Virus record (IMG/VR): IMGVR_UViG_3300037585_002615 | Coordinates: 1 to 47,785 of that record | DNA: 47,785 bases | Reading direction: 5' to 3' (one strand) | Source of the DNA: a virus | Part shown: one piece after another, positions 9,855-29,273 of the stretch | Position numbering within the stretch: position 1 is the first letter of the stretch | Layout of the letters: each line of letters starts with the position of its first letter | Translations under genes and position numbers: made by a program | Notes under the pieces: model-generated | What the model saw: only the letters and a program-made list of their open reading frames with translations | Databases searched by the model: none | What the model was told of the DNA's origin: nothing

Positions 9855-9873
9855 ATAGGAGGTAACCTCCTAT
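9855..9873 (+). promoter_or_regulatory. Hairpin hiding the SD and start codon of the gene at 9872
   Basis: ATAGGAGG (9855-9862) and CCTCCTAT (9866-9873) pair perfectly around a three-base loop. The stem contains the AGGAGG ribosome site and the first two bases of the start codon. The stop codon of the upstream gene lies at 9852-9854, immediately before it. A ribosome finishing the upstream gene would melt the stem, so translation coupling is likely. Confidence 0.65.
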
Positions 9874-10837
9874 GGCAACAGGAACTTGGAATACTGGCTC
9901 TTGGAGTCAAAACCAATGGGGAGATAATGCTAATCCAACAGTTATCCCTACAGGGTTTGGCATGTCGGCAACACTCGGAGACGAGTCAAGCACAACAGAA
10001 ATTAATTTAGGTTGGGGTAGACAAGAATGGGGTCTTCAAGGTTGGGGTATTGGAGGAACTCTTATTCCTACAGGAATTTCTACAACATCTAGTTTAGGAA
10101 GTGTTACTACAACAGCTGATGCTAACACAGGTCCATCCACAAATAACAATCAAACATTAACAACAGGTCTTGGAAGCGTAACCGCTTTTGGTTTAGCTGA
10201 AGTTTCACCAACAGGTATTCCACTTACAACTAATTTAGGAGCAGTTGATGCTAGTCCTGATGCAATGCCTACAGGTGTTGCAGCTTCTATGGGACTTGGA
10301 ACTGTTGAAGCCTTTAACCTAGCAGGTTGGGGTAGACTTGGTTGGGGAGATAATGACTGGGGTGAACCGGGTAGTTCTGTTCAAGCAGATGTTTCTGGAA
10401 TTGCAATGACTGCAGCTTTAGGAACTCCAACAGAAATTACTGGTGATGCAACTATTGTTGCAAATACTTTAAACGTAGCTCAATTAACTTTAGGTGTTGT
10501 TGACCCTGCACCTGATGCAGCACTCACAGGTAATTTCATGATAGGTACTTTAGGTACTCTTGGAATGCAAGGGGATGTTTTACCTGTTCCAACAGGTATA
10601 GCAATGTCTGCAGCTTTAGGAAGCGTAACAGTAGACTTAAATCAACAAGTAAATGTTACTGGAAATCCTCTGTTAGCAAGGGTTGCTTCAGTATCTGCAT
10701 TTACAAATGCTACCGCAACTTTCAATGGTTTTGGGTTGACTACAACAGTAGGAAGTGGTAATGCTCTTATCTGGAACGAAGTAAATACCGGTTCCGCTCC
10801 AATAGACCCTCCAGGTTGGAGAGAAGTCGTTGCATAA
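9872..10837 (+). CDS. Repeat-rich tail protein with Trp-Gly motifs
   Basis: The protein has 321 residues built from at least seven degenerate repeats of the type PTGIxMSAALGSVT, spaced by about 25-40 residues. Trp-rich blocks (GWGRQEWGLQGWGIGG and GWGRLGWGDNDWG) sit between them. Related Trp-Gly blocks occur in the nozzle-like protein at 16140 (GWGTSSWGDETWG). The repeats suggest an elongated fibre or tail-surface protein. Its start is inside a hairpin (9855-9873), and its stop begins the terminator stem at 10834. Confidence 0.65.
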   Translation: MATGTWNTGSWSQNQWGDNANPTVIPTGFGMSATLGDESSTTEINLGWGRQEWGLQGWGIGGTLIPTGISTTSSLGSVTTTADANTGPSTNNNQTLTTGLGSVTAFGLAEVSPTGIPLTTNLGAVDASPDAMPTGVAASMGLGTVEAFNLAGWGRLGWGDNDWGEPGSSVQADVSGIAMTAALGTPTEITGDATIVANTLNVAQLTLGVVDPAPDAALTGNFMIGTLGTLGMQGDVLPVPTGIAMSAALGSVTVDLNQQVNVTGNPLLARVASVSAFTNATATFNGFGLTTTVGSGNALIWNEVNTGSAPIDPPGWREVVA

Positions 10838-10892: not shown

Positions 10893-11594
10893 ATGGCGAA
10901 TTCAACATCAGCAAATTTAAAACTTACAGTACAAGCAACTGGAGAAAATTCAGGAACTTGGGGACAAATAACTAACACTAACCTTTTAATTTTAGAACAA
11001 GCGATTGGTGGTTTTACTACTTTTAATATTACTAACGCTGCTAGATCTTTAACTTTTACTAATGGTGCAGTATCCAATGGTAAAAATGATGTTATTAAAT
11101 TAACAGGGACTTTGGCTTCTAACCTTACTGTTAGTATCCCAAATTCAATTGAAAAAACTTACCAAGTTCAAGACGCATGTAATCATGCTGGAAATACTTT
11201 AACTTTCAAAACTGCATCTGGAACAGGTGTACTTTTATGTGAAGGAAATAATTACACATTATATTCTGATGGAACTAATGTTGTAAAACTTCATGAACAA
11301 AGAAATTGGAGAGCAGTATCAGCAGCAGAAACAGTTCAAGCTGGAGCTCAACTTTTAGTAAATACAAGTGGAGGAGCAGTTACAATAACTCTTCCAGCAT
11401 CACCGGCTGCAGGGGATCAAGTAAATTTTGTAGATCAAGGTTACGATTTTAACTCTAACGCATTAACTGTTGGTAGAAATTCTTCTAATATAACTAATGC
11501 AGCATCCGATCTTGTAGTTAATACTCAAGGAGCTGCTTTTGGATTAGTATATTCTGGAGACGCTACAACAGGATGGACTTACACGGAGAAATAG
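10893..11594 (+). CDS. Tail fibre-like structural protein, 233 aa
   Basis: The protein has 233 residues. The opening ANLKLTVQATGENSGTWG and WGQITNTNLLILEQAIGG form a conserved N-terminal anchor seen in marine phage fibre proteins. The rest is beta-rich with repeated VTITLPASPAAGD and VNTQGAAFGLVYSGD elements. It ends in a WTYTE-type segment. It heads a run of fibre and collar genes, has its own promoter, and has GGAG before the next gene. The exact place in the tail is unknown. Confidence 0.65.
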   Translation: MANSTSANLKLTVQATGENSGTWGQITNTNLLILEQAIGGFTTFNITNAARSLTFTNGAVSNGKNDVIKLTGTLASNLTVSIPNSIEKTYQVQDACNHAGNTLTFKTASGTGVLLCEGNNYTLYSDGTNVVKLHEQRNWRAVSAAETVQAGAQLLVNTSGGAVTITLPASPAAGDQVNFVDQGYDFNSNALTVGRNSSNITNAASDLVVNTQGAAFGLVYSGDATTGWTYTEK

Positions 11595-11595
11595 T

Positions 11596-11964
11596 ATGGC
11601 AACAAATGCAAACTGGAGTGTTATATTTGAGGATAAAAATATAGTTAAACAAACAGGAGATGCTGCTGGGACTGGCTATATTATTAATGATGACTCTTTT
11701 TGGAATCAGTCTAAATTTTCAAATATTTGGGCCATTCAATATGGAACATCAAATCCAAGTGATACTGTAGAATACAGAGATGGGACCTCTCATTCTAGTT
11801 GGGAAGATGCCGACTTAGGAAATTTTCAAGACTTTATCGATAAATGGGATTCAACTCATTTAATTAACCTTCAATCTAATTGGGATAATAACAATATAGA
11901 TGGTGAAACCGCAGAGGAGAAAATAATTAGATTAGGAGCTCGTCCAGTTTCATACAGTTCTTAA
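11596..11964 (+). CDS. Hypothetical tail-region protein, 122 aa
   Basis: The protein has 122 residues, acidic and aromatic: WSVIFEDKNIVKQTGD, FWNQSKFSNIWAIQYG, WDSTHLINLQSNWDNN. It ends in AEEKIIRLGARPVSYSS. Its place between two fibre genes suggests a fibre component or assembly helper. No family is recognised. A GGAG site ends in the previous gene. Its stop codon touches the hairpin at 11964-11985. Confidence 0.6.
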   Translation: MATNANWSVIFEDKNIVKQTGDAAGTGYIINDDSFWNQSKFSNIWAIQYGTSNPSDTVEYRDGTSHSSWEDADLGNFQDFIDKWDSTHLINLQSNWDNNNIDGETAEEKIIRLGARPVSYSS

Positions 11965-11985
11965 TTCTAATTTTATAATTAGAAT
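11964..11985 (+). promoter_or_regulatory. Hairpin joining the stop codon of one gene to the start of the first collar gene
   Basis: ATTCTAATT (11964-11972) pairs with AATTAGAAT (11977-11985) around a TTAT loop. It begins in the TAA of the upstream gene and ends within the ATG of the collar gene at 11984. No SD is visible, so translation of the collar gene may depend on re-initiation by ribosomes coming from upstream. Confidence 0.5.
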
Positions 11986-12553
11986 GTCAAATTACGAAGC
12001 AACAAAATACGATTTCAGTGCAGCAAACCTTACAGGTATTGAGGGGATTCCTTCGGCAACTATTGTGCCCTGGACATCTGCTTCTGTTCCCGCTGGATTT
12101 TTAGAATGTAATGGTGCAGCAGTTTCAAGATCAACCTACGCTGCATTATTTGCAATTATAGGTACAACCTATGGAGCAGGTAATGGTTCATCTACTTTTA
12201 ACGTTCCAGATTTACAAGATAATGCAGCCATGGGTAAATCAGGAACTAAGGCTTTAGCTTCAACGGGTGGTGCAAACACAGTTCAATCAACAGGAAACGT
12301 TGGAGGTTCAACTGCAGCTCATTCTTTAACAACTCCTGAAATGGCACCTCACTCTCACCCAGTTGGAGGTGGAAGTCGAAACACACCGGGAAATTTAAAT
12401 GCTAATCCATCAGGAATAAGCGTTAATCCTGGTAGTACAGGCAGCGCAGGAGGTGGTTCAAGTCATAGTCATAACATGAGTGCAACTTTTACAGGTGATG
12501 CAACTTCTGTTGTTCAGTCTTATTTAACTTTAATATATATTATAAAAACGTAG
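11984..12553 (+). CDS. Phage tail collar-domain protein, copy 1
   Basis: The protein has 189 residues. GFLECNGAAVSRSTYAALFA (38-57) and STFNVPDLQDNAAMGK (70-85) are the collar-domain signature, as in T4 gp12 and phage Mtd/short-fibre tips. HSH motifs at 123-125 and 161-163 flank a Gly/Ser/Asn-rich stretch that differs between the three copies. In T4 fibre tips such HxH motifs bind metal and form the receptor-binding end; that role here is inference. The start is inside a hairpin and lacks an SD. Confidence 0.85.
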   Translation: MSNYEATKYDFSAANLTGIEGIPSATIVPWTSASVPAGFLECNGAAVSRSTYAALFAIIGTTYGAGNGSSTFNVPDLQDNAAMGKSGTKALASTGGANTVQSTGNVGGSTAAHSLTTPEMAPHSHPVGGGSRNTPGNLNANPSGISVNPGSTGSAGGGSSHSHNMSATFTGDATSVVQSYLTLIYIIKT

Positions 12554-12559
12554 GAAAAA

Positions 12560-13132
12560 ATGTCAAATTACGAAGCAACAAAATACGATTACGATGGATC
12601 AAATATAACAGGGATTGAAGGTATTCCTTCAGCAACTATTATTCCATGGTCAGACTCATCTATCCCCTCTGGATTTTTAGAATGTAATGGTGCAGCAGTT
12701 TCAAGGTCTACTTATGCAGCCTTATTTGCAATAGTAGGTACAACTTATGGTGTAGGAGACGGTTCGAGCACTTTTAACGTTCCAGATTTACAGGATAATC
12801 TTCCAATAGGAAAATCAAACAATAAAGCTTTAGGCTCAACAGGTGGTGCAAACACTGTAACATCAACTGGAAACGTTGGCGGTTCGACAGCTAATGCAAC
12901 TTTAAGTAGTCCACAACTAGCTTCGCATAGTCACCCCGCTAATAAAAATTCAGCTCCTGGAGCTCCCTCAAATTCTGAAATGCCTTACAGTGGTGCATAT
13001 AGTAATGATGGGGGTACAGGTGGTGCAGGCGGTGGAGGAGGACATTCTCATAACATGAGTGCAACTTTTGCAGGTGACGCTACCTCTGTTATTCAACCTT
13101 ATTTAACAATAATATATATTATAAAAACTTAG
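12560..13132 (+). CDS. Phage tail collar-domain protein, copy 2
   Basis: The protein has 190 residues and closely resembles copies 1 and 3. Collar signature GFLECNGAAVSRSTYAALFA is at 38-57 and HSH motifs are at 123-125 and 162-164. The segment between them (PANKNSAPGAPSNSEMPYSG and following) is its own and Pro/Ser-rich. It starts six bases after copy 1 with AGGAAAAA upstream. It is likely a tail tip or short-fibre protein that meets the host surface, possibly alternating with its paralogues. Confidence 0.85.
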   Translation: MSNYEATKYDYDGSNITGIEGIPSATIIPWSDSSIPSGFLECNGAAVSRSTYAALFAIVGTTYGVGDGSSTFNVPDLQDNLPIGKSNNKALGSTGGANTVTSTGNVGGSTANATLSSPQLASHSHPANKNSAPGAPSNSEMPYSGAYSNDGGTGGAGGGGGHSHNMSATFAGDATSVIQPYLTIIYIIKT

Positions 13133-13139
13133 GAAAAAA

Positions 13140-13700
13140 ATGGCAAATTACGAAGCAACAAAATACGATTTTTCAGGAGCAAATTTAACAGGTGTTGAAG
13201 GGATTCCTACAGCAACTATTGTTGAATGGTCATCTGCTTCTATTCCCGCTGGATTTTTAGAATGCACTGGCGCAGCAGTTTCTAGATCTACTTATGCAGC
13301 TTTATTTGCAATTGTGGGCACTACCTATGGAGCAGGTGATGGTTCATCTACTTTCAATTTACCTGATATTCAAGACAAAGTAGTTCTAGGTAAATCAAAC
13401 AACAAAGCTTTAGGTTCAACCGGTGGTGCAGCGACAACAACTACTACAGGAAACGTTGGTGGTTCGACAGCTAATGCAACTTTAAGTACATCACAATTAC
13501 CTAGTCACTCTCATCCAGGTCTTGTGCCTTCTGGAAATTTTGCAAGTCCTGCAGGTGGTAGTTTAGGTAGAACAAATGCTAATTCAGGTTCTACCGGAGG
13601 TGGAGGTGGACACTCTCATAATATGAGTGCTACTTTTTCAGGAGATGCAACTTCTATTGTTCAACCCTATTTGTCAGTAGTATATATTATAAAAACTTAA
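13140..13700 (+). CDS. Phage tail collar-domain protein, copy 3
   Basis: The protein has 186 residues. The collar signature GFLECTGAAVSRSTYAALFA has a Thr in place of Asn. HSH motifs are at 123-125 and 158-160, with a shorter variable stretch (PGLVPSGNFASPAGG and following). The last residues IVQPYLSVVYIIKT match the other copies. Its stop codon directly abuts the end of the minus-strand oxygenase gene, with no room for a terminator between the convergent genes. Confidence 0.85.
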   Translation: MANYEATKYDFSGANLTGVEGIPTATIVEWSSASIPAGFLECTGAAVSRSTYAALFAIVGTTYGAGDGSSTFNLPDIQDKVVLGKSNNKALGSTGGAATTTTTGNVGGSTANATLSTSQLPSHSHPGLVPSGNFASPAGGSLGRTNANSGSTGGGGGHSHNMSATFSGDATSIVQPYLSVVYIIKT

Positions 13701-14297
13701 TTATCTTAACAACATCCAGGAAGTTAATAAATATTTTTTACCAGATAGAGGTGAATTTCCTCTATGAACATATGGAAATCCAGCGGGCCAAATAACTATT
13801 CTACCTGTTTTGGGTTTTATCCTTTTTGAAAAATGTAAAAATTCTGTTTCCCCACCTTCTTCAACATCATTTAAATAAATAGAAAAAACAAAAGCTCTTG
13901 GTTCATTATCAAATCCTTTATTATGCTCTATATGCCAAATATGATAACCCTCTGTAGGTAATGTTTTTTGAATTTTTAAAGACGTAAAATGAAAAGGAAC
14001 TCCATAAGCATCACCTGCTCCAGTGTTTTCTATATAATGTTTAAAGGCCATTTCAAAATTAACTATTATAGATTTTAAATCTTCATACCATATATCTAAA
14101 TTATTAGAGGCTGCAAAAAATTGTTGATCTTGTTTTTGTAATACTGATACTTTTTCAAAACCCATTCTGTTAACTGTATTATTAAACTTATCTTGATTGT
14201 CATATAGTTTAATTGCGTTATTACATTCTTTTGCTGTTATATAATTATCATAAATACCTATGAAATTTTCTATTTTAACTGTTTTTTCTTTTATCAT
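13701..14297 (-). CDS. 2-oxoglutarate/Fe(II)-dependent oxygenase, prolyl 4-hydroxylase type (HxE variant)
   Basis: The protein has 198 residues. GYHIWHIEHN (117-126) is the first metal-binding block, with H122 and E124 instead of the usual HxD. The strand FSIYLNDVEEGGETEF (138-153) and YVHRGN (176-181, distal H178) follow. The 2-oxoglutarate-binding basic residue would be K187 or K188. The fold is prolyl-hydroxylase-like. The HxE variant is known in some active oxygenases, so activity is possible. It is the last gene of a four-gene minus-strand run. Confidence 0.82.
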   Translation of the reverse strand: MIKEKTVKIENFIGIYDNYITAKECNNAIKLYDNQDKFNNTVNRMGFEKVSVLQKQDQQFFAASNNLDIWYEDLKSIIVNFEMAFKHYIENTGAGDAYGVPFHFTSLKIQKTLPTEGYHIWHIEHNKGFDNEPRAFVFSIYLNDVEEGGETEFLHFSKRIKPKTGRIVIWPAGFPYVHRGNSPLSGKKYLLTSWMLLR

Positions 14298-14897
14298 TTA
14301 ATATTTTAATTTTTTTATAATTTCTTTGTCTTCAAAACTATATACTTGATTTGTTGTTTTAAGAATCTCATCATTTTTATGGTGAGGAAATAATCCATTT
14401 TTATCCACATAGTGTAAAAATAATTGAGCTAATGCTTCTCCTTTATTAAATCCGAATCTTGAATGTTTGTCTTCTATTCCTAAGTAAATAAGTCCTTCAC
14501 CTGGTTCTATTTCAATTTTTTTATTATTTATAACCATTGGCCAATTTTTTGTTTTATAAATATTAACAGTTACACTAATTTCACATGCAGGTCTGTCTTT
14601 ATGGGCTTTTAAAACAGCTCCGTAAGGATACCATCTCCAATAAGCATAGGTAGGATATAGTTTTAATCCGGTTTCTTTTTCCATTAATGAAAGTTTTGAT
14701 TTTAAAATAACTTCCATAAAATCATCATGTTTATAATCAAGACAATAAGGAGCTACAGAAAAATCGTTGTTGAAAATATTAGCCGAGGATAATTTATCTA
14801 ATTTGTGTATTACATATTTTTGTGATAAATTTAATTCTTCTTCATTTAAGAAATTTTTAATTAATTTATATCTGTAATCTTTTCTTATACAAGCCAT
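14298..14897 (-). CDS. 2-oxoglutarate/Fe(II)-dependent oxygenase-like protein
   Basis: The protein has 199 residues. WRWYPYGAVLKAHKDRPACE (87-106) carries an HxD motif (H99, D101). EISVTVNIYKT is the next strand, and DKHSRFGFNKGEALAQLFLH (143-162) holds the likely distal His (H145). This arrangement fits a phage 2OG-Fe(II) oxygenase family distinct from the neighbours. The substrate is unknown. It overlaps the upstream gene by 13 bases, and its stop codon touches the start of the next gene, so the three oxygenases are surely one transcript. Confidence 0.75.
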   Translation of the reverse strand: MACIRKDYRYKLIKNFLNEEELNLSQKYVIHKLDKLSSANIFNNDFSVAPYCLDYKHDDFMEVILKSKLSLMEKETGLKLYPTYAYWRWYPYGAVLKAHKDRPACEISVTVNIYKTKNWPMVINNKKIEIEPGEGLIYLGIEDKHSRFGFNKGEALAQLFLHYVDKNGLFPHHKNDEILKTTNQVYSFEDKEIIKKLKY

Positions 14898-15439
14898 GCT
14901 ATAATACTATATCTTTTTCCTTTTGTGATAGGTTCTATTTTATGTGGATAAAAAAAATTTGAAGGCCAAATAACAACACTTCCTGTTTTAAGAGGTATTC
15001 TTTTAGTCTCATTAAAAAACTGATCTGAAAAAAGTAAATCTCCTCCTTCATAATTTTCATTCAAATTTATAATGATACTAATATTTCTATAAGTTGAATC
15101 TGAAGAGTCTACGTGATAATCATACCTACCTCCTACATTATATTTCAATATATCCACTTGACTTACAACGTTCGATATCAATCTAGGAAATCTATATTTA
15201 TAATGGCTGTAGAAATTTTTAATTTGATTATTTATTAATTGAAAATAAATCTTATCTCCTACATTTGTATCTCTTAAAATATGTCCATTTACTCTTCTAT
15301 AATCTTGACTGCCGCCAGCAGTAGGTAGTTTACCTTTACAAACTTTATTAGAATAATTTATTACCATTTGACAAAATTTTTTATCAACGATATTGTGTAA
15401 TACCATTATTCCATCTTCAATTTTCATTTTTTCTTTCAT
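14885..15439 (-). CDS. 2-oxoglutarate/Fe(II)-dependent oxygenase (canonical triad)
   Basis: The protein has 184 residues. YDYHVDSSDSTYRNISIIIN (106-125) holds H109 and D111. NYEGGDLLF, GSVVIWPSNFFYPHKIEP (distal H166) and KGKRYSIIAWL (R176) complete a normal prolyl-hydroxylase-like active site. This is the best preserved of the three oxygenases. A sigma-70-like promoter lies just upstream (15449-15478), giving almost no leader. An in-frame ATG at codon 5, with an AAAGAAA site ahead, could be the true start. Confidence 0.85.
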   Translation of the reverse strand: MKEKMKIEDGIMVLHNIVDKKFCQMVINYSNKVCKGKLPTAGGSQDYRRVNGHILRDTNVGDKIYFQLINNQIKNFYSHYKYRFPRLISNVVSQVDILKYNVGGRYDYHVDSSDSTYRNISIIINLNENYEGGDLLFSDQFFNETKRIPLKTGSVVIWPSNFFYPHKIEPITKGKRYSIIAWLV

Positions 15440-15448
15440 TTAATATAA

Positions 15449-15478
15449 CATATAACATATTGTTTAATATTTTGTCAA
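15449..15478 (-). promoter_or_regulatory. Sigma-70-like promoter for the minus-strand oxygenases
   Basis: On the minus strand a perfect TTGACA (15473-15478) is followed after 18 bases by TATATG (15449-15454). The predicted transcript start is within a few bases of the first ATG at 15439, so the message would be nearly leaderless or start at codon 5. Confidence 0.5.
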
Positions 15479-15488
15479 ACAGAATGTT

Positions 15489-16115
15489 TTAAAAATTAGA
15501 CTTTACTTCTAAAGGTCTATATTTTTTAATTAGTTTATAATTAATATCCGCACATACAGGTTCTTTTTTTGTATCCAATAAATATAAACCGCAATTTAAA
15601 AGTTTGGGGTGATCTAAAGAGGCTCCAGAATTTATTACAACATCAAATTTTTTATCTTTAAAATCTGTTTCTATTAAATTAATTTGCTTATTAAATTTTT
15701 TATTAATCTTTTTTAAAAAATTATTATATGAATCCATTTTAACCCCATGAGCTAAGGTATCATAATTAAAACACTTAATACCAATCTTATCTAAAAAAAC
15801 AGATAAAATTCCAAAACCACAACCATTGTCTATTATATTTTTATCTTTAAAAAAATTAATATTTTTTAATACATAGTCTAAGATCGCGTAATTTGGGGGG
15901 TATAGTAATTTATTAAAATACAAAACATCGTCTTTAATAATTTTATCTTTTTCCCATCTTCCTTTAAATAAACCTGGATCGTTAAAATAGTTATTAAATA
16001 ATTCTCCTACATGATCTACATATATATCAGACACTAAATTTAACCATTCTTTGTTAAAAGAATTTTTTAATAGATTAAAGTCTATTTCTGCATATATTTC
16101 TTTCTTTTCATGCAT
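15489..16115 (-). CDS. Class I SAM-dependent methyltransferase-like protein
   Basis: The protein has 208 residues. NIIDNGCGFGILSVFLDKIG (93-112) is the SAM-binding loop. FDVVINSGASLDHPKLL (about 158-174) fits the region after motif IV. The first 90 residues are helical and aromatic with no match I recognise. The target (protein, small molecule or sugar) cannot be told. It is very AT-rich and opens the minus-strand cassette, 24 bases from the divergent tail gene at 16140. Confidence 0.75.
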   Translation of the reverse strand: MHEKKEIYAEIDFNLLKNSFNKEWLNLVSDIYVDHVGELFNNYFNDPGLFKGRWEKDKIIKDDVLYFNKLLYPPNYAILDYVLKNINFFKDKNIIDNGCGFGILSVFLDKIGIKCFNYDTLAHGVKMDSYNNFLKKINKKFNKQINLIETDFKDKKFDVVINSGASLDHPKLLNCGLYLLDTKKEPVCADINYKLIKKYRPLEVKSNF

Positions 16116-24983: not shown

Positions 24984-27900
24984 ATGGATTGGAAAGAGCT
25001 ATCTCAAATTCCAGTGTTTTCAGAATCACAGGATGTTGCAACAGCCGCTCAAGGTGAAACAACTATTGGTGATTATGCTTTAGATATATTTAGAGCTCCT
25101 ATAGGAGGTATTAGTGATGCTCTACAAGGTTTGGTTACATTAGGTGTACTACCTTTTGATATGCTAACTGACAAAGATCTTACAGGAAAGATAGATGCTT
25201 TTTTTGATGCCGCTCCTATTTTAAATTTAGAAGCTAAAACCGGTCTTGGACAAATCGTTCAAACTATAACTCAATTTGGTGTACCTTTAGGTGTTGCATC
25301 AAAAATAGGTAGAGCAATTCCTCTTTTACAAAAAGCAGGACAAACTACAGCGCTTTCAAGTCTTCCAACCGTTGGAGCCAAAGGTGTAGAGATTGCAAGA
25401 AGAGCAGGTTACTGGGGAGCGTTAGGTGGAGCAACGGATATTGCAGTTAGTGTACCAACTAAGAACGTTGTCTTGTCAGACATGCTTGGTATAACGGAAA
25501 CACCGGATCTTGCATCAGCTACAGGTAAAGAACTAGCTGTAGAAAAAATGAAACAAAAATTAAAGTTTGGAGCTGAGGGTGCAGTTATTGGTGGAGGCGT
25601 TGCAATGTTACCTGTTGCAGGCGCAGTGGGTAAAAAACTTTTAGGACCTGTATACAATAAAGTAATTGATCCAGCAGGTAGACAAGTATTTAGACAATTA
25701 GATAGCAAAATTTTAAATCCCTTAACTCAAGTAATAGCAGGTACAGGTAAAGAAGGTACCTTTTTAACTAAAGGTGTAACTAAACTCGGTAAGAAAAAAG
25801 ATTTAGCTAAACAAACTATTTACGATAAATTAGATATACCGGATCCAGGACAATGGGCTTTTTTTAATACTAAAGGAGGTACCTTTGGTCAAGCAGTAGC
25901 GGGTAAACTAAGTAAAATAAAAGAATATTTTGGCTCTGCAGGTTTAATGTCTAAAACATTAAAAAATGAAGGAGACAAGGTAACCGGAAAATTAGAAGCT
26001 ATTACTAAAAAATTTAATCGTAAAGATGAAATGATTAATAAAAAACTTTATGACATAGTCTCTAAGTTTAAAAGAAATATTTTTGATGGCGTTCCTGACA
26101 TTAAATTATTAGGTAAGAATGTAACTAATCTTAAAAACATTAATCCTGGCTACCGAAACATTACAGACGAGCTTACTAGAGAACGAAATAAAATAACAGA
26201 TTACATTATAACTCCTGATAGAAAAGGAGCTGCTGAAAAATTAAAATTAGTTAATCCTGCAGTAAGACAAGAAGCTAAAGACATTAAACAAATGTTAAAA
26301 GAATCCAATATGTTGGTAGGAAATTTATTTGGCAACTCTCCAATTAAATCTTTTAAAACGTTAGCAGGTTTAAAAATGAATGATGCAGATAATTTCTTTA
26401 AACAAAGGTTAGCTTCTTTTAACAACAGTAAATTTGAATTTGATGTTAATGGACCCGCTGCAGCAGGAGCAAGAAAAGAATTAAAAAAAACTATTCTTTT
26501 AAATCAAAACATGCGGCCTAAAAATATTTCTTTTAAAGAGTCAAGAATTTTACAAAAAAAATTAAAAGAAGGTAAAAAACTTACAGAAAAAGAAACCGCA
26601 TTTAATAAATTATTAGACGCTGAAGTTAAAACTAGAATGCAAGGATTAAAAAGTGCAGTCATTAATGCAGGAGCTAATCCAGTTAAATACTTTAATGCAA
26701 TTGGTAGAGCGATCGGTAAAGATGTAAAAAAAGTAGACGATGTTTCTGATGAAATTAGAAATTTTCTATCTACTCCTAAAGGTCAAAAAGAAGCTATTAA
26801 TGATTTTAGTCCTGTCCTGGACACAATTATATGGAATAACAAACAAGTTTATCAAAGACAATATTTTGATCTTATAGAAGATCAATGGATGAAAAACGGT
26901 TTAGTTTTTAAAAACATTTTAACAGACGACGCGGCTTATCAAGATGTTTTAAGAAGAGGTATTGATCCAACTCGTTTAACAAAAATTACAGCTCGTACAA
27001 ATGCAGGTATAAATTCTATAGATGATTTTGCATTAGACTCTAAGTTTTTTAGAAATGAAAAATTAAGAAAACCTAAAGAAGGACAAGTTGCTAAAGCGGA
27101 TACTTATTATACATTGCCAGAAATAGCTAACGCTATCCAAGGAGTTAAAAGTAATTTTGATAATTTATTTGACGTTCCTATTTATTCTAACTTAATGAAA
27201 TTTAAAGCAGGTGGTCAAATTTCTAAAACAATTTTCTCACCAATGACTCAAGTAAGAAACGTATCTACCGCATCTTTCTTTCCACTAGCGAGTGGTTTGA
27301 TAGGTAGTCGTAGTTCAGTATCGCAAGCATTTAGAGATATATTTGAAGACATATTTCAAAGTGGAAAATTTGATCCTAAAATGTTTGATGAATGGATGGA
27401 CTCTAGTGTAACTAGAGGAATTATTGATCAAAGTATTCAAGTTAATGAGATGAAACGTTTAGCAGAAAGAGGAGTGAAAGGTCTTTTAAATGTAGATGAC
27501 TTTATGAAAAATCCAACAGTTAAAAAATTTGTTGATGTCTATCAAGGTGGAGATAACATTTGGAAAGTTTACTCTGATAGATTCTATCAATCAGCATTGA
27601 AACAAGCGTTTGGTGATCCAAAAGCCACACCTGCTAAAGTATTAGATCAAGTCAGAGAATGGTATAAAACTGTAGCCAAAGAAGATTTTATAGAGATTAG
27701 TTCTATTTCTGGAAAACAAAAAACGGCTCAAGAAGCTATAGAAGAAGTGTCTGCTTATTTAGTGACTAATACTATTCCAACTTATAGTAAAGTTCCTAAA
27801 GCAATACAAACTTTAAGAGATTTACCTTTAGGAAACTTTATAGCTTTCCCAGCAGAGATATTAAGAACGGGTGGCAATCTAATTACTTTAGGTGCAAGAG

Positions 27901-29273
27901 AATTAACTAGCACTAATCCTTACATTAGACAAATGGGAGCTCGTAGATTGATTGGAGCAAGCGCAACATTTGGTGGTATAGGCACAGTCATTGGTGGAAC
28001 AGCTCAAGCCATTACAGGAGTAACAGATGAAATGATGCAAAAAGCAAGAAGTTTTGTTCCTCAATATGAAAAGAATGCAACTTTAATTCCATTAAGTTCT
28101 CCCGATGCTGATGGTGTATTTAAATATTTTAATTTCTCTTACTCTAATCCTTATGATTTTTTAGTCAGACCTATTAATGCTGTTGTTAATGCTTATGGTA
28201 GACGTGAATTAAATCAAGACAACGCAGGGACATTTGTTTTAAATGCGCTTATTGGAGATAGACAGAATCCAGGTGCTTTAAGAGAATTTTTTGCTCCATT
28301 TATTGCTGAGTCTATTGGTACAGAAAGATTTACTGATGTTTCTCCTATACTTGGAAGAGGAGGTGAAACTGCAAGTGGTAAAAAAATATACAGAGAAACA
28401 GATTCAGATGGAGAAATATGGGCTAGAAGTTTAGAGCATATTATAGGTGGGTTAACTCCAGGAGCTTTTAGTTCTGCACAAAAAATATGGCAAGGAGCTA
28501 GTGGACAATTTACAGATTATGGTACCGGAAGAGACACTAGAGATGAAATAGTAGCATTGATGTCTGGTTTAAGAGTACAAGAAATTAAACCTAAACAAAG
28601 TATGCCTTTTGTTATTTCTTCTTACAGAAAAGATGAAGGAAACATTTCGCAAAAATTTAGTAGTTTAGCTTACTCAACAAATGTTTCACCTGAAAGAAAA
28701 GTAGCTGCTTACCAAGAGTGGATGAAAAATTCTTTTATATCTCAAAGAAATTTAAAAAATACGATAAATGATGCTTTGGATTTAGGAGTATCTACTAATG
28801 AAATAAGACAAATATTAACGGATCGTTTAGGAAATAAAAATAGAGTCGAAGCTCTTTTAAGAGGAAGATTTGTAGCTCCTACTCCTAGTCAATCTAGATT
28901 AGAATCTTCTATTAAAAGATTACAACAAGAAAATTTAAATGCATCTTTAAGCTATGAAATTGCTATGGATCTTGTAAATGATACATGGCAATCGTTAAGA
29001 AGAGACAATAATGGGTTTGATTTAGATCTTGGATTAGAAGCTTTTATTGAAAGCATGAACCTATCTGTAAGTCCAGACTTGTTTTCACTACGAGAATTAC
29101 CAGCTAAAGCTTCAAGTTTAGGTGTTCAAGAAACAGCGGATACTTCTGCAGTTTTACCAGTTGATCAAAACAAAAATACTGCTATAAATAATCAAGTAGT
29201 CTCAGCTTCTGTTCCTAATAGAACAACACCGGGACTATTTGAAAAATACTTTTCACGGGGGATATTTAGTTAA
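24984..29273 (+). CDS. Very large internal virion (ejection-type) protein, 1429 aa
   Basis: The protein has 1429 residues, the largest in the window. The first 150 contain hydrophobic helices (DALQGLVTLGVLPFDMLTD, QTITQFGVPLGVASKIGRA). A central region is Lys-rich and helical. Residues about 900-1100 carry further hydrophobic segments (GASATFGGIGTVIGGTAQAI). The C-terminal part has SRLESSIKRLQQENLNASLS. Size, helices and position after smaller internal proteins match the T7 gp16 class ejected into the host at infection. I see no transglycosylase motif. AGGAGG lies six bases before the ATG. Confidence 0.72.
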   Translation: MDWKELSQIPVFSESQDVATAAQGETTIGDYALDIFRAPIGGISDALQGLVTLGVLPFDMLTDKDLTGKIDAFFDAAPILNLEAKTGLGQIVQTITQFGVPLGVASKIGRAIPLLQKAGQTTALSSLPTVGAKGVEIARRAGYWGALGGATDIAVSVPTKNVVLSDMLGITETPDLASATGKELAVEKMKQKLKFGAEGAVIGGGVAMLPVAGAVGKKLLGPVYNKVIDPAGRQVFRQLDSKILNPLTQVIAGTGKEGTFLTKGVTKLGKKKDLAKQTIYDKLDIPDPGQWAFFNTKGGTFGQAVAGKLSKIKEYFGSAGLMSKTLKNEGDKVTGKLEAITKKFNRKDEMINKKLYDIVSKFKRNIFDGVPDIKLLGKNVTNLKNINPGYRNITDELTRERNKITDYIITPDRKGAAEKLKLVNPAVRQEAKDIKQMLKESNMLVGNLFGNSPIKSFKTLAGLKMNDADNFFKQRLASFNNSKFEFDVNGPAAAGARKELKKTILLNQNMRPKNISFKESRILQKKLKEGKKLTEKETAFNKLLDAEVKTRMQGLKSAVINAGANPVKYFNAIGRAIGKDVKKVDDVSDEIRNFLSTPKGQKEAINDFSPVLDTIIWNNKQVYQRQYFDLIEDQWMKNGLVFKNILTDDAAYQDVLRRGIDPTRLTKITARTNAGINSIDDFALDSKFFRNEKLRKPKEGQVAKADTYYTLPEIANAIQGVKSNFDNLFDVPIYSNLMKFKAGGQISKTIFSPMTQVRNVSTASFFPLASGLIGSRSSVSQAFRDIFEDIFQSGKFDPKMFDEWMDSSVTRGIIDQSIQVNEMKRLAERGVKGLLNVDDFMKNPTVKKFVDVYQGGDNIWKVYSDRFYQSALKQAFGDPKATPAKVLDQVREWYKTVAKEDFIEISSISGKQKTAQEAIEEVSAYLVTNTIPTYSKVPKAIQTLRDLPLGNFIAFPAEILRTGGNLITLGARELTSTNPYIRQMGARRLIGASATFGGIGTVIGGTAQAITGVTDEMMQKARSFVPQYEKNATLIPLSSPDADGVFKYFNFSYSNPYDFLVRPINAVVNAYGRRELNQDNAGTFVLNALIGDRQNPGALREFFAPFIAESIGTERFTDVSPILGRGGETASGKKIYRETDSDGEIWARSLEHIIGGLTPGAFSSAQKIWQGASGQFTDYGTGRDTRDEIVALMSGLRVQEIKPKQSMPFVISSYRKDEGNISQKFSSLAYSTNVSPERKVAAYQEWMKNSFISQRNLKNTINDALDLGVSTNEIRQILTDRLGNKNRVEALLRGRFVAPTPSQSRLESSIKRLQQENLNASLSYEIAMDLVNDTWQSLRRDNNGFDLDLGLEAFIESMNLSVSPDLFSLRELPAKASSLGVQETADTSAVLPVDQNKNTAINNQVVSASVPNRTTPGLFEKYFSRGIFS

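Follow-up and report, generated by a model that had tools for sequence, protein, structure and literature searches.

The receptor tip of a phage is usually a symmetric trimer built from one kind of chain. The fibres of T4 are homotrimers of one gene, unlike the trimer proposed here, and the tips of its gp12 and gp37 proteins (1ocy, 2xgf) combine a PF07484 collar with HxH motifs as does the locus described below, to which their sequence similarity is weak. In R-pyocin fibres the HxH motifs bind metal octahedrally through six histidines, two from each of the three chains; a similar metal site containing iron is found in gp37, and in the gp12 crystal zinc accompanies an HxH motif (PMC6116203). 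The sole printed precedent for a collar heterotrimer found among openly licensed papers comes from a virophage, DSLV2, in which three consecutive PF07484 proteins (QIG59353-QIG59355; 196-247 aa, gp37-tip-like, with a variable tip region) co-purify, forming a 1:1:1 heterotrimer, and attach to Synechococcus cells, so that the three-collar heterotrimer as a kind is known already (PMC12724248). The locus described here likewise has three consecutive PF07484 genes, but the DSLV2 trio is a virophage capsid fibre beside a minor capsid gene, whereas these genes belong to a tailed phage. Position-specific clades are reported for DSLV2; here the classes hold within the family of the phage described below, with the order permuted in one relative (L007). 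The accessible text on DSLV2 mentions no relatives with a single gene in that virus group (PMC12724248), whereas about three quarters of the relatives here have one gene. Variable tail-fibre ends are known in pelagiphages generally (PMC3909814). A heterotrimeric collar tip in a tailed phage with one- and two-gene relatives and a residue signature was not found among openly licensed papers, and PMC9599517, on uncultivated pelagiphages, contains no word beginning with 'collar' and no phrase 'tail fiber'.

The window, that is the whole stretch of DNA analysed, is a virus record of 47,785 bases in which three tandem collar genes follow a tail gene (U) and a small gene (X):

10893-11594, forward strand: tail gene U upstream of the array, at the position taken in HTVC027P by gp69 ('putative tail protein')
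11596-11964, forward strand: gene X, 122 aa, without family match in Pfam or PHROGs
11984-12553, forward strand: collar copy 1, 189 aa, with Phe11, Gly18 and Ala82
12227-12229, forward strand: codon 82 of copy 1 (Ala), in the column differing most within arrays
12350-12358, forward strand: first HSH of copy 1, residues 123-125
12359-12463, forward strand: hypervariable tip loop of copy 1, between its two HSH motifs
12464-12472, forward strand: second HSH of copy 1, residues 161-163
12560-13132, forward strand: collar copy 2, 190 aa, with Tyr11, Gly18 and Pro82
12803-12805, forward strand: codon 82 of copy 2 (Pro), same column
12935-13042, forward strand: hypervariable tip loop of copy 2, between HSH 123-125 and HSH 162-164
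13140-13700, forward strand: collar copy 3, 186 aa, with Phe11, Gly18 and Val82
13383-13385, forward strand: codon 82 of copy 3 (Val), same column
13515-13610, forward strand: hypervariable tip loop of copy 3, between HSH 123-125 and HSH 158-160

Adjacent collar genes are separated by gaps of 6 and 7 bases and, regarded as DNA repeats, the copies are about 80% identical. Contigs from other metagenomes (L002, L003, L004) match the window at 100% protein identity, which argues against an assembly artefact. Each copy matches the Pfam family PF07484 (Collar) with E-values of 1.7e-22 to 2e-20 and scores of 79.6, 76.6 and 72.9 bits against a gathering cut-off of 24, and all three are therefore members of the family, in agreement with an earlier note, made from the sequence alone, that had taken them for collar-type fibre tips. 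The same note described three consecutive paralogues with near-identical ends that diverge only between two HSH motifs. The paralogues and the contrast are borne out: amino acid identity among the copies is 78-80% over residues 1-90 and 79-86% in the C-terminal part, against 33-40% in the tip between the motifs, where the lengths differ too; from residue 90 to the first HSH it is 56-81%. The word 'only' has to be given up, as divergence is strongest between the motifs but residues 11, 18, 28 and 80-82 also differ between copies of one array, and do so in a pattern. The first HSH occupies residues 123-125 in all three copies and the second residues 161-163, 162-164 and 158-160 in copies 1, 2 and 3.

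The best annotated match of the collar protein is gp70 of the Pelagibacter phage HTVC027P (MN698241), with 69.8% identity over the whole protein. Gp70 lies in the same place as the array in the window, between the gp69-like gene and an oxygenase island, but is the single collar gene of its genome, where the window has three. The order in the window (gp69-like gene, collar, reverse-strand genes with oxygenase, large forward structural gene) and the homology around the collar are as in HTVC027P, and on these grounds the phage is a relative of the HTVC023P-type pelagiphages. This kinship, together with the labels Alphaproteobacteria (one) and Pelagibacteraceae (one) on the single-cell-type assemblies that carry the collar relatives L508 and L512, makes a SAR11 host likely. 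Gene U, which served as the anchor for copy counts, probably encodes a protein on which the collar protein docks or beside which it lies. Gene X stays near the collar genes (C) in varying places (UCX, UXCCC, UCXCC, UCCCX) and could possibly be a fibre-assembly factor.

Between the fibre and structural genes lies the reverse-strand island (13701-16115), which encodes two 2OG-Fe(II) oxygenases with one protein without Pfam match between them, as well as a weak methyltransferase match; the island of HTVC027P is similar, not identical. Upstream of gene U, positions 9872-10837 encode a 321-aa protein with short repeats (PTGI...LG, WG...WG) and no PHROG match. In the structural region, positions 24984-29273 encode a 1429-aa protein that has no match in Pfam and a marginal one in PHROGs. 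A diversity-generating retroelement was considered and set aside, no reverse transcriptase being found with Pfam among 29 scanned window proteins, which are part of the ORFs of a fragment.

The two HxH motifs are present in all 239 collar copies compared, a set that leaves out the truncated third copy of one array (L068). Random pairs of copies are 81% identical in their cores and 33% in their tips, against 27% for shuffled tips. The retention of the motifs around such divergent tips indicates that the motifs are structural and that the loop between them is the variable module, and the view of the earlier note that HxH motifs frame the variable end is upheld. In phage fibres such motifs bind a single metal between three chains (PMC6116203). 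Since each chain of the window has two HxH motifs, two metals per trimer would be expected. The best profile matches are 8kec, a 'Long tail fiber' (E 1.9e-9), and 9qgo (E 1.3e-5); 1ocy is matched weakly (E 0.0076). An AlphaFold2 model of copy 1 built from 127 sequences is of low confidence (mean pLDDT 54.4, pTM 0.28), and a pseudo-trimer obtained by reading the in-frame three-gene array of L342 through its stops reached pLDDT 45.3 and pTM 0.26.

Among the paralogues dN reaches 0.85-1.10 in the tip, compared with 0.14-0.15 for residues 1-90 and 0.09-0.13 for the C-terminal part. The earlier note had proposed comparing synonymous and non-synonymous change with related phages, and for this two orthologous arrays, L005 and L006, were used as references for change along the window genes. 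In the comparison with L006, the tips have 0.597 non-synonymous differences per codon and the other parts 0.086 (for synonymous differences, 0.207 and 0.128); with L005 the values are 0.272 and 0.056 (for synonymous differences, 0.068 and 0.056). The tips thus carry 5 to 7 times more non-synonymous change per codon than the remainder, with a permutation P of 5e-5, which is the floor of the test; all three tips contribute to the change against L006, and copy 1 leads against L005. Selection on the three tips is diversifying or very relaxed. The rest of each copy, with a pN/pS of about 0.2 to 0.5, is under purifying selection, so that all three genes are kept as proteins and none looks inert.

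Eight scans of viral contigs yielded 501 loci, among them overlapping pieces of the same contig. After removal of loci that lacked the upstream anchor or had fewer than 1300 bases past the last collar ORF, the 374 loci with anchor and complete array, HTVC027P and the window included, were collapsed at 95% DNA identity into 188 clusters. Of these, 140 have one copy, eight have two, 28 have three, 12 have none and none has more than three, in a sample biased by the use of collar genes of three-copy arrays as queries in part of the scans. Loci fetched by neighbouring genes only gave 76 clusters with one copy, one with two, nine with three and 12 with none (98 clusters). A maximum of three, with two copies rarer than three, is what trimeric assembly predicts, unlike plain duplication. 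Two-copy arrays had seemed almost absent from a first set of 82 loci, a view that the wider sampling weakened (8/188 clusters). Three-copy arrays occur in three gene orders (UXCCC, UCXCC, UCCCX), and in a quick tree the well-supported branches require the single-copy label to change at least four times; several independent triplications are suggested, without being proven. On the core tree, also a quick tree, L382, one of the eight two-copy clusters, equals L074 minus its middle collar copy, so either a deletion or an assembly join could account for it.

Core columns were compared between the 28 three-copy arrays and the 140 single-copy phages, in which Phe11, Gly18 and Ala82 are the rule; some columns with little or no variation among the single-copy phages differ between the copies of one array. 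Column 82 of the single-copy phages is Ala in 120 and Pro in 20, whereas in 26 of the 28 arrays exactly one copy has Pro82 (none in two arrays, two copies never), against a mean of 12.6 and a maximum of 21 in 2000 shuffles among arrays, and the three copies have three different residues in this column in 25 arrays. Tyr11 is found in exactly one copy in 23 arrays (none in four, two in one; shuffle mean 12.4, maximum 21) and Asp18 in exactly one copy in 20 (none in seven, two in one; shuffle mean 12.3, P 0.004); each is absent from all 140 single-copy phages. When 85 variable core columns were tested across 27 arrays, leaving out the array of L068 with its truncated third copy of 110 aa, columns 82 (0.004) and 11 (0.013) passed Bonferroni correction; at the median core column the copies of one array are more alike than chance (z -1.63). 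With related arrays collapsed to 14 families the P values are 0.003 for column 82, 0.022 for 11 and 0.15 for 18, and with nine families 0.033, 0.093 and 0.29. The one-of-each pattern, which lies outside the tip and is the strongest evidence, gives the copies the appearance of being matched to each other. Tyr39 and Val91, which are likewise absent from single-copy phages, do not follow the one-per-array rule, and opposite charges between copies, when tested, gave the reverse sign (838 against a null of 804.8).

The copy that bears each mark varies among arrays. Outside the test, the distant array L015 has one Pro82 and one Tyr11, L371/L372 lacks Tyr11 and has one Asp18, column 82 being unread in one copy, and L511, judged by eye, likewise lacks Tyr11 and has one Pro82 and one Asp18; nine further held-out loci are near-copies (0.95 or more) of counted arrays. 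Within the family of the window three classes persist despite permuted order, which in L007 is b-a-c, with SH-aLRT values of 98, 97 and 96 (97, 91 and 96 in the core tree). Of the 28 arrays, 23 map 1:1 onto their nearest other array, and the deep tree is without resolution.

The three genes probably encode three chains of a single 1:1:1 heterotrimeric receptor-binding tip of a pelagiphage, a reading drawn from comparison of the sequences. Each chain would be a short collar protein with two HSH motifs, which would come together with those of its two partners and enclose two metal ions on the threefold axis. Docking on the tail would fall to the near-invariant N-terminal stretch, and the receptor-facing tip would consist of the hypervariable loops that lie between the motifs. 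A single gene would in most relatives give all three chains of a symmetric homotrimer, and in the lineage of the window this gene would have been triplicated and the copies specialised at a few core positions (11, 18, 82), such that each chain takes its own place and three different loops make up an asymmetric composite binding surface. We infer trimerisation, metal and receptor binding, the presence of all three chains in virions and the location of residues 11, 18 and 82 at the interface.

The three proteins could instead form three independent homotrimers, separate tips of different specificity in which the differences at 11, 18 and 82 only prevent chain mixing. All three genes are complete and under purifying selection, the near identity of their N-terminal residues would let all three dock in the same way, 20 of the 140 single-gene phages tolerate Pro82, and interface divergence could also keep three homotrimers apart. 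However, homotrimers with Tyr11 or Asp18, if viable, should occur in single-copy phages and do so in none of 140; insulation alone needs no single Pro82 and single Tyr11 per array, and copy number ends at three with two copies rarer than three. Independent homotrimers are accordingly judged unlikely, and one trimer with one chain of each kind is the simplest account of the absence of Tyr11 and Asp18 from single-copy phages and of the once-per-array marks. The earlier note had offered alternative or heteromeric tips, of which heteromeric fits better and alternative, in the sense of copies that are independent or silent, fares poorly in view of the purifying selection on all copies and the one-of-each pattern. 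As that note proposed, the arrangement might broaden the host range.

Far less probable is an array of one working gene and donor copies, in which the latter supply sequence for gene conversion or phase variation of the tip. Exchange of tips between phages does appear to exist, since a few single-copy phages have the same tip on different cores, as expected if tips are exchanged: L038 and L326 have 100% identical tips on cores of 85% identity, and L449 and L459 tips of 90% on cores of 83%. Each copy in the window, however, has its own start and stop, a GGA stretch precedes copies 2 and 3, and all three are under purifying selection; moreover, 83 of 84 copies have their nearest core in another phage rather than in an array neighbour, and tips within one array resemble each other scarcely more than random tips do (0.353 against 0.329). 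Redundant tandem duplication without specialised function, through dosage or drift, deserves as little credence, for although the tips of the two-copy phages L025 and L399 are alike (identity 0.79 and 0.68) as in young duplicates, all copies are under purifying selection, their differences are patterned and non-random with the marks dosed once per array, and copy number never exceeds three.

For the heterotrimeric tip, the two-copy phages offer a possible intermediate. Six of the eight two-copy clusters (L025, L077, L135, L330, L351, L399) have exactly one Pro82, the other copy having Ala82 or Val82, and in L025, L330, L351 and L399 the residues typical of single-copy phages are retained by the first copy and changed in the second. 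Such phages may build AAB trimers. In L025 (2530-4078) and L399 (556-2131) the tips are similar and the core marks already apart (Phe/Tyr11, Ala/Pro82), which suggests that core specialisation precedes tip divergence. The balance tips slightly towards a broader proposition, namely that SAR11 tailed phages have repeatedly made an obligate three-gene ABC heterotrimer from a one-gene homotrimer by a few core-residue changes (one Pro82, one Tyr11 and often one Asp18 per trimer), that three independently evolving loops form one asymmetric receptor site, and that the two-gene L025, L330, L351 and L399 are living AAB intermediates. With one-, two- and three-gene relatives side by side, the step from symmetric to asymmetric tip would be readable in sequences and testable by single residues. 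If the heterotrimer reading is right, it would explain how a phage of a very abundant ocean bacterium can vary three loops independently on one tip, and the sequence signature could serve to find heterotrimeric fibres elsewhere.

The twelve clusters without a collar gene (L182, L184, L185, L186, L192, L193, L197, L211, L213, L221, L223, L227) have a different, often glycine-rich gene after the anchor gene, which is longer there; the start of this different gene is of the MPLIGTFGAG type in most. In L185 it has a match to phrog_2295, and a phrog_7759 gene comes next. In these relatives the tip module seems to have been swapped as a whole. Three adjacent collar genes (196, 192 and 182 aa) also occur at about 1350-3070 of L552, a distant bacterial-MAG contig with a GC content of 0.50.
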